Below are positions 33,554 to 37,446 of a stretch of 37,569 nucleotides of DNA, in pieces. A program made the translations under genes and the position numbers. Numbering within the stretch: position 1 is the stretch's first letter; each line of letters opens with the position of its first letter. This DNA is from Oscillospiraceae bacterium (GTDB lineage Bacteria > Bacillota > Clostridia > Oscillospirales > Acutalibacteraceae): positions 1 through 37,569 of the forward strand of contig WQWM01000021.1 in assembly GCA_009785335.1 (NCBI GenBank). Direction: 5' to 3'. A model generated the notes under the pieces. It was not told the origin of the DNA. It did no database searches and saw only the letters and a program-made list of their open reading frames with translations.

Positions 33554-33571
33554 ATAAACCCACACCTTTCC

Positions 33572-33625
33572 GCATGTCAATGTCATCAATGCATGATATG
33601 CGGGCGGGGTGGGGTTTAGAAGTGC
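33572..33625. repeat. Left repeat flanking the AraC gene (R1)
   Basis: About 54 bp, containing GCATGTCAA, TGCATGATATGCG, GCGGGGTGGGG and TTAGAA, matches 34691-34744 in order and spacing with scattered differences. The two copies lie on either side of the AraC-family gene. Confidence 0.78.
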
Positions 33626-33641: not shown

Positions 33642-34583
33642 TTATGCTTCCGCGATTGGTATATAGTTGAAATTCGTGTGCGGCGGGGTGTTATACTCGG
33701 CATGGCAGTGATATTCAATCTGCATATGCACATTAGGCTGCGGCTGATAGCCGTGCTCTTGCGCTGCTTGTTCTAGCATACCGAAATACTCCCAGCCGCC
33801 GTGGTTGCTTCTGCCAAAGAATGCGGCATCGGCTTGTTCGCTCACCCGCACGCGCAGCCAAAGGCCACCTGGTTGTGTGAGCAGGTCATATCGCTCATCT
33901 TGGCTAGCTGAATAGGTTTCCTGTGCAAACATGATGCCGCAAGCTTGCGCATCGTTGCCGTAATTGATGGAAATGCTGGCACTCCAGCCGGGGTTGATCA
34001 GCTCTCGTTTGGGCACATCGATGAGTTCCTCGCGATAGCGTGCAAGCACTTTGCCGATATCTGGCTCATCGCTGTTGTTGCTTGCATAACCCACACAACC
34101 AACCCAAACGACCTCAGGTCGTTCAATGATTTCACATTCCACGCCTTTGTGGATGATGGTGCGCACAACGGTTTCTACGTTTGAGATAAGCTTTCTGGAC
34201 ATGACAAATCCTCCCTTGATGTTCATTTGGATGGTGAGAGGATTGAACAATTTGAGTTGGTTTCTTTTCACATGAACTTTGGATGGTTTGAAGCCATGAA
34301 AGCGCGCAAAGGCGCGTGCAAAACTTTCTGGGGTTTCATAGCCATACTTTAGCGCTAGGTCAATCACGCGGCTTTTTGCGTCAATCAATTCTTGGCCAGC
34401 AACCGACAATCGCCTGTTTTTGATGTATTCCCGAACGGAAATTTGCGCGGCCACAAGAAACATTTTTTGCAGATAACCGCTGGAATAACCCACATGGTTT
34501 GCCACATCGTCAATCGTGATGGCGGCAAACAAATTATTCTCTATATAATTGATTGCCTGTTGCACGTCGTTAATCCAACTCAT
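33642..34583 (-). CDS. AraC-family regulator with GyrI-like effector domain
   Basis: The 313-aa product has two AraC helix-turn-helix units in the first ~105 residues (AAITIDDVANHVGYSSGYLQKMF, then DLALKYGYETPESFARAFARFHGFKPS). A linker follows, then a GyrI/effector-binding domain (IIERPEVVWVGCVGYASNN to MQIEYHCHAEYN). This Rob-like arrangement senses small molecules. GAGGTTGAAAAT precedes ATG 34583. The gene is flanked by direct repeats R1 and R2, so it may be an inserted or duplicated unit. Ligand and targets are unknown. Confidence 0.88.
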   Translation of the reverse strand: MSWINDVQQAINYIENNLFAAITIDDVANHVGYSSGYLQKMFLVAAQISVREYIKNRRLSVAGQELIDAKSRVIDLALKYGYETPESFARAFARFHGFKPSKVHVKRNQLKLFNPLTIQMNIKGGFVMSRKLISNVETVVRTIIHKGVECEIIERPEVVWVGCVGYASNNSDEPDIGKVLARYREELIDVPKRELINPGWSASISINYGNDAQACGIMFAQETYSASQDERYDLLTQPGGLWLRVRVSEQADAAFFGRSNHGGWEYFGMLEQAAQEHGYQPQPNVHMQIEYHCHAEYNTPPHTNFNYIPIAEA

Positions 34584-34676
34584 ATTTTCAACCTCACAAC
34601 ACAAAGCATAACACTCTTTTCAATGCTTGTCTTGACTTTTTGGGTTTTGATTTGTCCAAAACACTTGGGCGCGGTG

Positions 34677-34744
34677 CTAAAAATTCCTGCGCATGTCAAA
34701 CACACCAGTGCATGATATGCGAGCGGGGTGGGGCTTAGAAATGC
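34677..34744. repeat. Composite repeat R2: mreB tail copy plus AraC-flank repeat
   Basis: Positions 34677-34707 are identical over 31 bp to 35375-35405, which encode the last nine codons and stop of mreB; on the minus strand this copy still spells GVFDMRRNF-stop. Positions 34691-34744 match R1 at 33572-33625. R2 therefore joins both duplications. Confidence 0.88.
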
Positions 34745-34748
34745 ACAA

Positions 34749-34780
34749 AAAACAGCCCTCCATAATCAGAAGGCTGTTTT
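34749..34780 (-). terminator. Terminator of the small RNA
   Basis: AAAACAGCC (34749-34757) pairs with GGCTGTTTT (34772-34780). On the minus strand the hairpin is followed by a run of six T. Confidence 0.88.
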
Positions 34781-34790
34781 AATCATAGAA

Positions 34791-34884
34791 GGAATGGTGG
34801 CAGGTCCGGCGGTACCTGCATCTCTCGAGCCGAAGCTCTGTCCTACCAGCGGCGTGTGGAAGCCGTTGTCCACCTCACCATTCC
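34791..34884 (-). ncRNA. Structured small RNA, family not recognised
   Basis: The 9-bp closing stem GGAATGGTG (34791-34799)/CACCATTCC (34876-34884) encloses three hairpins. In minus-strand order they are GTGGA/TCCAC with an 8-nt loop; GAGC-TTCG-GCTC, a UUCG tetraloop closed by C-G; and GCAGGT/ACCTGC with an 8-nt loop. The two 8-nt loops carry complementary CGGC/GCCG, so a kissing contact is possible. A minus-strand promoter (34922-34951) and a U-run terminator (34749-34780) fit a stand-alone transcript of ~165 nt. It has no TTCGAAT T-arm, so it is not a tRNA, and it lacks the SRP RNA tip sequence. It lies between mreB and AraC in a repeat-bounded segment with a PBECR nuclease. Confidence 0.7.
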
Positions 34885-34921
34885 TGTACTATTTTACGCA
34901 CATTGACTTGCCCCTATACCT

Positions 34922-34951
34922 ATCTTACCACAAAAACGCACCCATTTGCAA
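34922..34951 (-). promoter_or_regulatory. Probable promoter of the small RNA
   Basis: On the minus strand TTGCAA (34951-34946), 18 bp, TAAGAT (34927-34922). Transcription would start near 34915, about 30 nt before the closing stem. It is moderate, not perfect. Confidence 0.55.
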
Positions 34952-34982
34952 GACTCAAATGTTCTTTTTCGTGTCATATCCG

Positions 34983-35357
34983 CTACATGTGCTCGGTGCT
35001 TTCATGTAATATTTCGTGTGTCACGAGATAACGTTGCAAGCGTGATTCCTTGATTTCCCAAAAAGAAATAATAGAATTTTTATAGCCACTATCATCTGTG
35101 CAGAGTCGAAGAACGATTTCACTCACTCGTTCAAAACGCTTTATCACCAATGCGGTGTTCTCATGCTTTGGGTCGCGCAAGATATAATCTGGCGATTGCA
35201 ATACTTCAGGCAGATGTGTCAAGCACCGTTCGTATACCTCGGCGCGTTTATCTCGAACATGTTGTGCACGATTATCAGTAAGAATGACTTCGTCCGTTGT
35301 TATTCCAGATGAGATTTTTTGAAAAAGTGCGACATCAATTTTCCCAATTAACTGCAT
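34983..35357 (-). CDS. PBECR-type (Barnase/EndoU/ColicinE5-RelE-like) nuclease
   Basis: The 124-aa product reads TTDEVILTDNRAQHVRDKRAEVYE, then LPEVLQSPDYILRDPKHENTALVIKRF, and VLRLCTDDSGYKNSIISFWEIKESRLQRYL. The ordered H (in RAQHV), DxxxxNT segment and NSIISFW fit the phage-borne PBECR nucleases related to RelE/colicin folds, predicted RNases. No antitoxin gene adjoins; the small RNA just downstream on the same strand is a candidate partner by position only. The start is 17 bp after the mreB stop, behind AGAGGGA at long spacing. The segment is bounded by 31-bp direct repeats. Confidence 0.62.
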   Translation of the reverse strand: MQLIGKIDVALFQKISSGITTDEVILTDNRAQHVRDKRAEVYERCLTHLPEVLQSPDYILRDPKHENTALVIKRFERVSEIVLRLCTDDSGYKNSIISFWEIKESRLQRYLVTHEILHESTEHM

Positions 35358-35374
35358 TTTCTTAATTATTCCCT

Positions 35375-36433
35375 CTAAAAATTCCTGCGCATGTCAAACA
35401 CACCAATGTCATCATCGGTGCGATAGAAATAGCCGTTTTCAGCCAAAATATCCGGCCGCTCCATGAGAATGCCCATGCCCAGTGCCACGCACTGCACAGG
35501 TTTTTCTGCCACATACACAGGCAGGCCGAGTTCTTGCTCTAGCATCACATCCAGGTCACGCAGCAGCGCGCCGCCGCCCGTGAGCATCACGCCTTGGTCA
35601 AAAATATCACCCGCCATTTCAGGCGGTGTTTCCTCTAGGGTTTCGGCAACCACATCCACAATGTCTGCCAAGTGCTCGCGCATGGCCAGATAAGCCTCGG
35701 TGGACGTCACCTCAAAACGCACAGGCAATCGGCTCAGATAATCTTGCCCACGCGCATAAATCGCAAGCTCAGCCGGGCGAATGCGCGCACAGCCCACTCG
35801 CTTTTTGATTTCCTCGGCCGTCAGCTGCCCAACCAGCACATTGCGTTCACGCCGCAGATATCGCGCGATGGAATCCTCAAGCACATTGCCCGCCACGCGA
35901 CGACTGCGCGAAACCGCCGTGCTGCCCATGGTGAACACGCCCACGTCGGTGGTGCCGCCGCCGATGTCCACTACAATTTGTCCGCCAAGCGGGTTGAGAT
36001 TCAAGCCAGCACCGAGAGCCGCTGCAAGGGGTTCGTCAACCAAGCAAGCGCGACCTGCACCGCAAGCCAAAGCAAGCTCGAGTATCGCGGCTTTCTCCAG
36101 TTCGGTGACGCCCGAGGGCATGCAAATCATCACAGACGGCTTGAACAAACGCCGCCCGCACAGCTTTTTCAGATAATGCGTAACGATGGTGTGCACCACA
36201 GTGAAGTCGCTAATCACGCCGTCACGCATGGGGTGCACCACACGCAAATTGCCGGGATTGGTACGTCCCAGCATTTTCACCGCAGCGTTGCCCAGCGCAA
36301 GAATATCTCCGGTTTTTGCATCAAGGGCGGCCACAGATGCCTCTTGCATCACAATGCCGCGCCCCTTCACATACACTTGGATGGAAGTTGTGCCAAGGTC
36401 AACGCCAATTTGCAGCCCGGCTATTGTGCTCAC
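35375..36433 (-). CDS. mreB: MreB/Mbl family actin-like cell-shape protein
   Basis: The 352-aa product has phosphate-1 loop IGVDLGTTSIQVYVKGRGIV, then HPMRDGVISDF, CMPSGVTELEKAA, EPLAAALGAGLNL, phosphate-2 VVDIGGGTTDVGVFTMG, GNVLEDSIARYLRRE, and LTGGGALLRDLD. It polymerises under the membrane and guides side-wall synthesis in rod-shaped cells. Start doubt: the frame opens at GTG 36433, but the ribosome site AGGAGG (36438-36433) overlaps that GTG. A start at correct spacing would fall on ATA (36424-36422), giving an N-terminus like typical MreB. The 3' end is duplicated at 34677-34707. The PBECR gene follows after 17 bp. Confidence 0.93.
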   Translation of the reverse strand: MSTIAGLQIGVDLGTTSIQVYVKGRGIVMQEASVAALDAKTGDILALGNAAVKMLGRTNPGNLRVVHPMRDGVISDFTVVHTIVTHYLKKLCGRRLFKPSVMICMPSGVTELEKAAILELALACGAGRACLVDEPLAAALGAGLNLNPLGGQIVVDIGGGTTDVGVFTMGSTAVSRSRRVAGNVLEDSIARYLRRERNVLVGQLTAEEIKKRVGCARIRPAELAIYARGQDYLSRLPVRFEVTSTEAYLAMREHLADIVDVVAETLEETPPEMAGDIFDQGVMLTGGGALLRDLDVMLEQELGLPVYVAEKPVQCVALGMGILMERPDILAENGYFYRTDDDIGVFDMRRNF

Positions 36434-36462: not shown

Positions 36463-36831
36463 CTAACACATGATCATCCAATTAACGCCGAATTTATCGA
36501 CTAGCGAGAACATGAGCGCGGCATACTCGCACTTGCCGAGCGGCACATTGCACTTGATTGCATCAAGCATCAGCACATCGTACGCGTTTTGCACAAAATC
36601 CTCGCGACCCTTGCCCATGTCAAAAATAAACTGCATGTTGTTGCCAACCGCAACTTCGTCAGCATTCTCCATCAAGGAGATCGTCTGCCCACACACATTG
36701 ATTTCGGCGTGTTCAATGCCGCCATTTTCAAACGTGCCATAAATCTGGCCCGTTGTGCCGAAAGCAGTTTCATACAACTTCATCGCCTCGTGCGAGTTTT
36801 TGACGTACACTTGCATCATCGACCTGTTCAT
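36463..36831 (-). CDS. PhnB-like VOC protein (copy A)
   Basis: The 122-aa product has the VOC fold: MMQVYVKNSHEAMKLYETAFG, GIEHAEINVCGQTISLMENADE, MQFIFDMGKGREDFVQNAYDVL, and the closing ALMFSLVDKFGVNWMIMC. It resembles PhnB/3-demethylubiquinone methyltransferase-like VOC proteins, whose substrates are mostly unknown. AAAGGAGAGAAGAAT precedes ATG 36831. A longer frame adds a 12-residue MNLRKKAKGEKN unit that is really a copied ribosome-site cassette. It is paralogous to the next gene. Confidence 0.85.
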   Translation of the reverse strand: MNRSMMQVYVKNSHEAMKLYETAFGTTGQIYGTFENGGIEHAEINVCGQTISLMENADEVAVGNNMQFIFDMGKGREDFVQNAYDVLMLDAIKCNVPLGKCEYAALMFSLVDKFGVNWMIMC

Positions 36832-36923
36832 ATTCTTCTCTCCTTTAGCTTTTTTTCGCAGATTCATGTTCTTCTCTCCGTTCGCTTTTCCTAGATTTTC
36901 GCCGCTGTAGAGAATGCTTATTA
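36832..36923. repeat. Copied upstream cassette (left copy)
   Basis: A ~92-bp block upstream of VOC copy A matches 37355-37446, upstream of VOC copy B, with one or two differences. It includes a poly-A tract, AAAGGAGAG ribosome site and ATG on the minus strand. Confidence 0.85.
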
Positions 36924-36931
36924 GGCGTCAT

Positions 36932-37312
36932 TCAATAATCAACAAAAACGCACCAATTCACACCGTATTTATCAATGAGTCCAAACATTAGCGGACTGAA
37001 AAAGCATTCCCCTAGCGGAAAATTGATTTGAGCGTCTTCTTTGAGAACCTCGTAGGCTTTTTCTACGATGGCTTGTTTGCCGGAAGCGAAATGGAGATTG
37101 AATTGCATAATCGTACCAGTTATCAAATCCATATCCCTTGGCCATATTTCCTGTATAGCTATTACCTGTCCATACACATCTAGTTCGGCGTGCATATAGG
37201 TGCCGTCATCGTTTTTGTGTTCTGATACAAGTTTAGCATCAAACGCTTTTTGATAAAATTCAACTGCACCAATTCCTCGGACGCTTATTCCTAAAAATGA
37301 ACGATTTAACAC
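36932..37312 (-). CDS. PhnB-like VOC protein (copy B)
   Basis: The 126-aa product reads LNRSFLGISVRGIGAVEFYQKAF, HAELDVYGQVIAIQEIWP, MQFNLHFASGKQAIVEKAYEVL, and PLMFGLIDKYGVNWCVFVDY. The same ordered blocks occur in copy A, so the genes arose by duplication and then diverged. I choose GTG 37312, aligned with the copy A start and behind AAAAGGAAT. The longer frame from 37390 would add two tandem copies of MNLRKKTKGEKN that encode ribosome-site repeats. Role unknown. Confidence 0.82.
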   Translation of the reverse strand: MLNRSFLGISVRGIGAVEFYQKAFDAKLVSEHKNDDGTYMHAELDVYGQVIAIQEIWPRDMDLITGTIMQFNLHFASGKQAIVEKAYEVLKEDAQINFPLGECFFSPLMFGLIDKYGVNWCVFVDY

Positions 37313-37319
37313 ATTCCTT

Positions 37320-37446
37320 TTCTTCTCTCCTTTAGTTTTTTTTCGCAGATTCATGTTCTTCTCTCCTTTAGTTTTTTTTCGCAGATTCATGTTCTTCTCT
37401 CCGTTCGCTTTTCCTAGATTTTCGCCGCTGTAGAGAATGCTTATTA
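37320..37446. repeat. Tandem 36-bp ribosome-site/start units
   Basis: Two identical 36-bp units (37320-37355 and 37356-37391) are followed by a diverged third. On the minus strand each carries ATGAATCTGCG, a run of eight A, and CTAAAGGAGAG, so each supplies its own start codon and ribosome site in the same frame. The part 37355-37446 matches 36832-36923. Confidence 0.85.

Follow-up and report, generated by a model that had tools for sequence, protein, structure and literature searches.

A 37,569-nucleotide stretch of an Oscillospiraceae bacterium genome (assembly GCA_009785335.1, contig WQWM01000021.1; "the window" hereafter means this whole stretch) raises the question of why a gene for a predicted PBECR-type nuclease and a small structured RNA should lie directly behind mreB, bounded by a second copy of the last 31 bp of that gene. 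The initial annotation of the locus had read the repeat as an attachment-site copy carried by an inserted element, and the nuclease as a possible toxin with an RNA partner, of type I or type III-like kind. We find that the RNA belongs to the skipping-rope family (RF02924) and that it stands beside other PBECR genes as a recurrent pair, far beyond mreB. With a probability of roughly 70%, we read PBECR2 and skipping-rope RNA as a two-part toxin/antidote module, in which the RNA would act as antitoxin or immunity factor for a BECR-type RNase. The copied mreB tail is best read as a by-product, a recombination scar that is a separate matter from the nuclease-RNA pair.

Pairing of PBECR2 with skipping-rope RNA

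In the window, the nuclease matches PF18810 (PBECR2) at 39.4 bits (curated cut-off 27.1) and the RNA matches RF02924 at 54.5 bits (cmscan; gathering threshold 36.7). Among 148 relatives, the window genome included, 16 genes have PBECR matches (in 17 rows, as one gene is split), and RF02924 lies just downstream of all 16 as counted by eye, in one case only after a rescan. Across 391 genomes of the class, the RNA is found 38-142 nt downstream and on the same strand for 41 of 45 PBECR2 matches, with no pair within 3 kb in any other order. Some RNA searches in these two sets used stricter filters that lose weak matches; rescanning the four misses from the 391 genomes returned one RNA at 40.5 bits and another, at the right place, at 22.2 bits and thus below threshold, bringing the count to 43/45. 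The two misses without an RNA on rescan are a locus with a terminator remaining and a match scoring under the cut-off within a 724-aa open frame. Neither PBECR2 nor RF02924 was found in 14 control genomes. The species-genome collection features the RNA at 77/79 PBECR2 loci, the remaining two ending at a contig end; RNA matches were taken there up to E = 0.1 (the weakest, at 24.5 bits, lies at the expected place), and one of the two peptide patterns used for these loci covers the codons of the -35 box of the RNA promoter, which could favour RNA-bearing loci.

The same order is found in other settings, as all three viral loci carry the RNA and a single phage record retrieved by its protein features PBECR2 and then the RNA (60.0 bits). 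Beyond Clostridia, a 10.6-kb Fusobacterium nucleatum plasmid, likewise found by protein, has PBECR2 followed by the RNA (60.8 bits), and an F. animalis plasmid contains a near-identical stretch with both. The Fusobacterium plasmids also carry an open reading frame (ORF) annotated as a hypothetical protein of about 80 aa with a helix-turn-helix-like look (L305, 2188-2430), which ends one base before PBECR2, like an antitoxin gene. When starting from the RNA, a PBECR match lies upstream in 27/38 instances in IMG/VR viral contigs, some of them near-identical, and in 58/103 instances in genomes, with six more being PBECR-like by eye or frameshifted; the hidden Markov model that scored the genome instances had those very loci as its seed.

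Loss within the pair is lopsided, with 2 of 45 PBECR2 matches lacking an RNA trace versus 33 of 74 RNAs lacking a PBECR2 match. Eight such orphan RNAs keep the structure (stems 142/144, kissing pairs 44/48), a figure biased upward by three RNAs left out by hand. Three skipping-rope RNAs (L023, L137 and L149) are seen close behind genes that by eye resemble RelE/RelB, ParE/RelE and PIN toxins rather than PBECR2. Two others without PBECR2, from different genomes (L135 and L148), are preceded by what appears to be the same small protein family (about 90 aa), one of the two RNAs lying behind a phage minor capsid gene.

Protein and RNA types vary together. Their distances correlate with a Mantel r of 0.79 over 50 modules, a value reached in 0 of 2000 permutations; the set draws on the 50 of 58 profile-matched loci with a usable start, 4 under 110 aa being dropped and 4 proteins added by hand. 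The covariation also holds within genomes that carry two different modules, where 10 of 12 comparisons show the RNA to be like the one found with that protein type elsewhere, both failures involving one divergent protein from G415.

The AlphaFold model of the window nuclease (pLDDT, the predicted local distance difference test score, 87) resembles toxin-antitoxin, colicin D and contact-dependent inhibition entries, which head the 50 structural matches shown. The BECR core, as outlined in the portion consulted of PMC5512222, comprises a histidine in an N-terminal helix, four or five strands and an alcoholic residue in strand 4. The model features a helix at residues 28-37 that holds H33 and strands at 58-61, 68-73, 80-86 and 95-102, the last with S95 and, as read from the sequence, S98. 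The protein keeps H33, K73, R84 and S95, and has R38-A39 in place of H38-P39, the sole such case among 68 in A5. BECR enzymes are described in the same portion of that source as metal-independent RNases, an activity that PBECR2 presumably shares. Pfam searched up to E = 1 returns only PBECR2, PBECR3 and MuF_C for the window protein, with no ToxN match by sequence profile as distinct from fold; a ToxN-like chain is also absent from the 50 structural matches shown, which excludes nothing. The protein matches PHROG 29609, of unknown function, and has no match in PADLOC or NCBIfam, while a sequence-profile search of the PDB gave a single match, AcrIIA2, at the chance level of E = 0.18.

The conserved structure of the RNA was assessed in an alignment (A3) of 32 sequences, including the window copy, taken from 35 A-type RNAs after L138, L147 and L148 (divergent or degenerate, and without a PBECR profile match upstream) had been left out by hand. 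Pairing in its closing stem, two hairpins and kissing helix reaches 99.0%, versus 80.5% in shuffled and 33-47% in slid controls, and two-sided changes are seen at 8/8 P1 pairs and 4/6 kissing pairs. Stems and kissing pseudoknot thus covary, in keeping with the initial annotation, which had called the RNA structured. The kissing helix is 97.3% paired, although the window copy and two of its kin have gaps at two of the six pairs, and variable bases are found for the most part in stem P1, the kissing loop and the P3 region. A pseudoknot, pk_1, already features in the skipping-rope family, which Rfam classes as a small RNA (sRNA), in the part of the Rfam 14 paper at hand (PMC7779021). A promoter scoring at least 10/12 precedes the RNA in 78/80 loci versus 3.7% of shuffles, its best-scoring site ends 16-20 nt before the start of the RNA model in 79/80, and at several loci the -35 box lies in the last nuclease codons (LYK).

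Phage head fusions and the role of the RNA

An open frame of at least 200 aa precedes the nuclease at 11/79 genome loci and 2/3 viral loci. Ten of these 13 long ORFs were scanned, and in all ten PBECR2 is fused to a phage head domain, namely Phage_min_cap2 (PF06152) in six and Phage_Mu_F (PF04233) in four, with the RNA still following. A sigma70-like promoter of at least 10/12 is present in the linker codons of 9/13 long fusions versus 18% of synonymous-codon shuffles and, if real, would also allow the toxin domain and its RNA to work as a module of their own inside the capsid gene. The fusions could also mean that skipping-rope is a phage-head (packaging) RNA whose tie to the nuclease is only apparent, a notion that we regard as highly implausible. 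Among the 391 genomes, the RNA lies within 1 kb of only 2 of 47 PF06152 genes, one of which is itself a PBECR2 fusion, so the RNA tracks the nuclease domain rather than the capsid gene, and on this count a capsid-linked RNA was rejected. Moreover, 55 of the 79 genome loci have an open frame of fewer than 60 aa before the PBECR2 match, which leaves no capsid domain there, and 53 of these 55 carry the RNA, the other two ending at contig ends. That the RNA follows the enzyme almost always, even where the latter is the tail of a phage capsid protein, suggests that it is the antidote.

In such a module PBECR2 would act as a small BECR-fold RNase that needs no metal. The RNA, with a promoter of its own immediately 3' of the nuclease gene and in part within it, and with a terminator at its end, would form a compact pseudoknotted partner that binds and blocks the enzyme. 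In phages, a head protein (MuF or minor capsid protein 2) carries the nuclease as its C-terminal domain, and the RNA, at the place of an immunity gene, may protect the lysogen or the toxin-producing cell against self-intoxication. The detached module would be represented by the solo cassettes of chromosomes and plasmids, such as the one behind mreB; the window copy, at 124 aa and solo, lacks the head domain of the MuF-toxin architecture. We give even odds to the broader proposal that skipping-rope is the RNA immunity factor of temperate-phage head toxins and that its detached cassette has spread through clostridial and fusobacterial chromosomes and plasmids as a new RNA-neutralised class of toxin module.

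Other roles for the RNA have to be weighed against that of an antidote. It could be a partner of another kind, that is a substrate, guide or activating cofactor of the nuclease, as conserved unpaired bases and near-obligate pairing fit any RNA-protein complex. The metal-independent RNase activity ascribed to BECR enzymes in the cited portion of PMC5512222, the lack of a free variable guide segment in the 32-sequence alignment and the greater frequency of RNA without nuclease than of the reverse all make this unlikely. Slightly less probable again is a trans-acting sRNA that functions independently and simply accompanies the nuclease, as its Rfam class and the RNAs without a PBECR2 match might suggest; it sits poorly with a near-fixed order and spacing, with covariation with the protein type even within genomes, and with the recurrence of the pair in settings as different as chromosome, phage head gene and Fusobacterium plasmid.

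The type I alternative, in which the RNA would be antisense to the nuclease mRNA, has in its favour a small RNA beside a small toxin-like gene, but the RNA is encoded on the same strand and downstream of that gene, and no antisense signal was detected, the duplex energy with the cognate mRNA beating the non-cognate mean in only 43/80 loci. We therefore rejected this candidate and consider it very improbable. The suggestion in the initial annotation of a toxin with an RNA partner accordingly stands as regards a recurrent pair that is type III-like in principle, and falls as regards type I.

The locus behind mreB and the origin of its repeat

The features of the locus are collected in the table below. 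Their order on the minus strand is mreB, nuclease, RNA, intergenic segment, mreB tail copy, AraC gene, intergenic segment and next gene.

Features of the nuclease-RNA locus in the window
Feature	Position	Strand	Basis
mreB, intact	35375..36433	minus	Pfam MreB_Mbl 3.1e-109
PBECR2 (BECR-type) nuclease gene, 124 aa, stand-alone, presumed toxin	34983..35357	minus	Pfam PF18810
Skipping-rope RNA (RF02924), presumed RNA antitoxin	34792..34883	minus	cmscan
Candidate RNA promoter TTGCAA-18-TAAGAT, weak	34922..34951	minus	8/12 consensus bases
Intrinsic terminator 3' of RNA	34746..34778	minus	hairpin and T-run read from sequence
31-bp mreB tail, original copy	35375..35405	minus	exact repeat
31-bp mreB tail, second copy, 5' of AraC gene; read as recombination scar	34677..34707	minus	exact repeat
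Intergenic segment 1, joined to mreB tail copy	34706..34738	minus	near-copy of segment 2
Intergenic segment 2, 3' of AraC gene	33565..33619	minus	similar segment after AraC gene in G010, after RNA in G002
AraC-family gene, directly after mreB in G010 (locus L049)	33642..34604	minus	HTH_18 5e-15

Between the 31-bp copies lie a single family-matching minus-strand ORF (PBECR2) and a single RNA. The nuclease gene, RNA and terminator claimed at the outset are thus upheld, but the promoter is weak in the window copy, unlike the near-consensus promoters of most of its kin; the close relative G002 features TTGACA/TATAAT between nuclease and RNA and a similar hairpin 3' of the RNA. The window copy is an ordinary chromosomal member of the nuclease-RNA family, perhaps one in decay. 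A second, weak skipping-rope match (37.8 bits) occurs elsewhere in the same genome (L002, G000:C20:19260-19346), with TTGACA/TATAAT upstream and without a PBECR match.

The identity between the two 31-bp copies is real and spans the last nine codons and stop of mreB; it extends to 33/34 bp over 34677-34710 and 35375-35408, and the chance expectation of an exact 31-bp repeat is about 3e-10 for the window length and equal base use. Next to the tail copy, intergenic segment 1 is identical to the matching part of segment 2 at 30 of 33 positions, and TGATGACATTG and TTGACATGCG are common to the intergenic segment and the mreB tail. In G010 (MreB 97% identical), mreB is followed directly by the AraC gene, a short intergenic segment and the next gene; the pair is missing there behind mreB and has hence been gained or lost, making G010 the relative with mreB but no insert that the initial annotation had proposed to look for. 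G002 (MreB 95%) has the order mreB, nuclease, RNA, intergenic segment and next gene, with neither the AraC gene nor a 31-bp copy. Comparison of these genomes with the window makes a recombination scar the best reading of the repeat. Very probably, an arrangement like that of G002 was joined in the window to one like that of G010, at a short stretch of similarity shared by the intergenic segment and the mreB tail, by which the tail would have been copied; the exact crossover point and direction of change are those that we infer.

As first proposed, the repeat would be where a mobile element recombines or attaches; this seems improbable, even though the flanking repeat is exact, the presence of the pair behind mreB varies between relatives and many other cassette copies have sharp ends. 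G002 carries nuclease and RNA behind mreB without the repeat, an outcome that the initial annotation itself had named as refuting its proposal; the intergenic segment has been duplicated along with the mreB tail, the ORF list holds no recombinase-sized gene between the repeats, and no target-site repeats surround the other copies examined. An element integrating with a copy of its attachment site, recognisable by a recombinase and shared flanking core repeats, was rejected on these grounds. The link with mreB is likewise not specific, as among the relatives seen only G002 shares the site and the other examined copies lie elsewhere.

The cassette as such has well-defined ends. Among the 70 listed of 3653 pair matches, many copy pairs have in common a stretch that begins about 63 bp ahead of the nuclease start and stops about 40 bp past the RNA, with no similarity outside it (for example L227/L228, 95.7%); others match over longer flanks and probably represent one and the same locus. 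These ends, running from the TTGACA of the toxin to the terminator, are preserved in eleven copies found in the G481 genus, in surroundings unlike the flanks of the query; RNA-only copies also occur in this genus, and Ruminococcus bicirculans 80/3 has a clean cassette. An exact-match script applied to 13 copies (3 of them RNA-only pieces, and G194 aligning only from within the gene) found only short matches as target-site repeats at the cassette ends, and no terminal inverted repeats were noted by eye. One tandem array repeats a 12-bp spacer. Nuclease-RNA cassettes in tandem arrays, spaced by about 18 bp, are seen in L222 and in G535:C37 (L301), and next to one cassette (L218, 3588-3705; G535:C5) lies an approximately 115-bp repeat that contains a palindrome; more than 10 copies of this repeat are spread over about 60 kb of one contig. 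In the window itself, adjoining similar ORFs on the minus strand (36463-36867 and 36932-37390) carry a 97-bp repeat over both starts (36827-36923 and 37350-37446, 98% identical), the second ORF having an extra tandem start copy.

Relation to known systems and meaning

The closest parallels are the type III systems (ToxIN, CptIN, TenpIN), which likewise place an endoribonuclease toxin next to a pseudoknotted RNA, here the proposed neutraliser. The type III antitoxin RNA consists of tandem repeats upstream of the toxin with a terminator in between, according to the portion available of PMC5086642, whereas skipping-rope lies downstream, mostly as a single copy (tandem in a minority), with its own promoter and with the terminator after the RNA. 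The nuclease also differs, being of BECR type and, by sequence profile rather than fold, outside the ToxN/CptN/TenpN families. The best-supported conclusion is that the pair would be like type III in principle and unlike it in nuclease family and gene order.

The fused forms resemble the MuF polymorphic toxins of temperate phages, which in the available part of Jamet et al. 2017 (PMC5576092) combine a head protein with a C-terminal toxin and have a putative immunity determinant directly downstream. The immunity factors of characterised MuF toxins are proteins in the part seen of PMC12226406, unlike here, where the determinant would be an RNA. The PBECR domains of polyvalent proteins treated by Iyer et al. 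2017 (PMC5512222) share nuclease family and fold and occur in solo and MuF- or portal-fused forms; the passages of that paper at hand mention no RNA partner for PBECR or BECR.

Among the open-licence literature matches listed, no report of a PBECR2/skipping-rope pairing was found, and the parts of the literature located state neither a partner protein nor a function for skipping-rope. The original description of the RNA is reportedly that of Weinberg et al. 2017. An RNA family of unreported function thus gains a partner and a testable job, and skipping-rope becomes linked to phage head toxins. If the antidote role is true, it would exemplify both immunity to a polymorphic toxin conferred by an RNA and the neutralisation of a BECR toxin by an RNA, and phages would protect their lysogens from a head-borne RNase toxin by means of a pseudoknotted RNA rather than an immunity protein.
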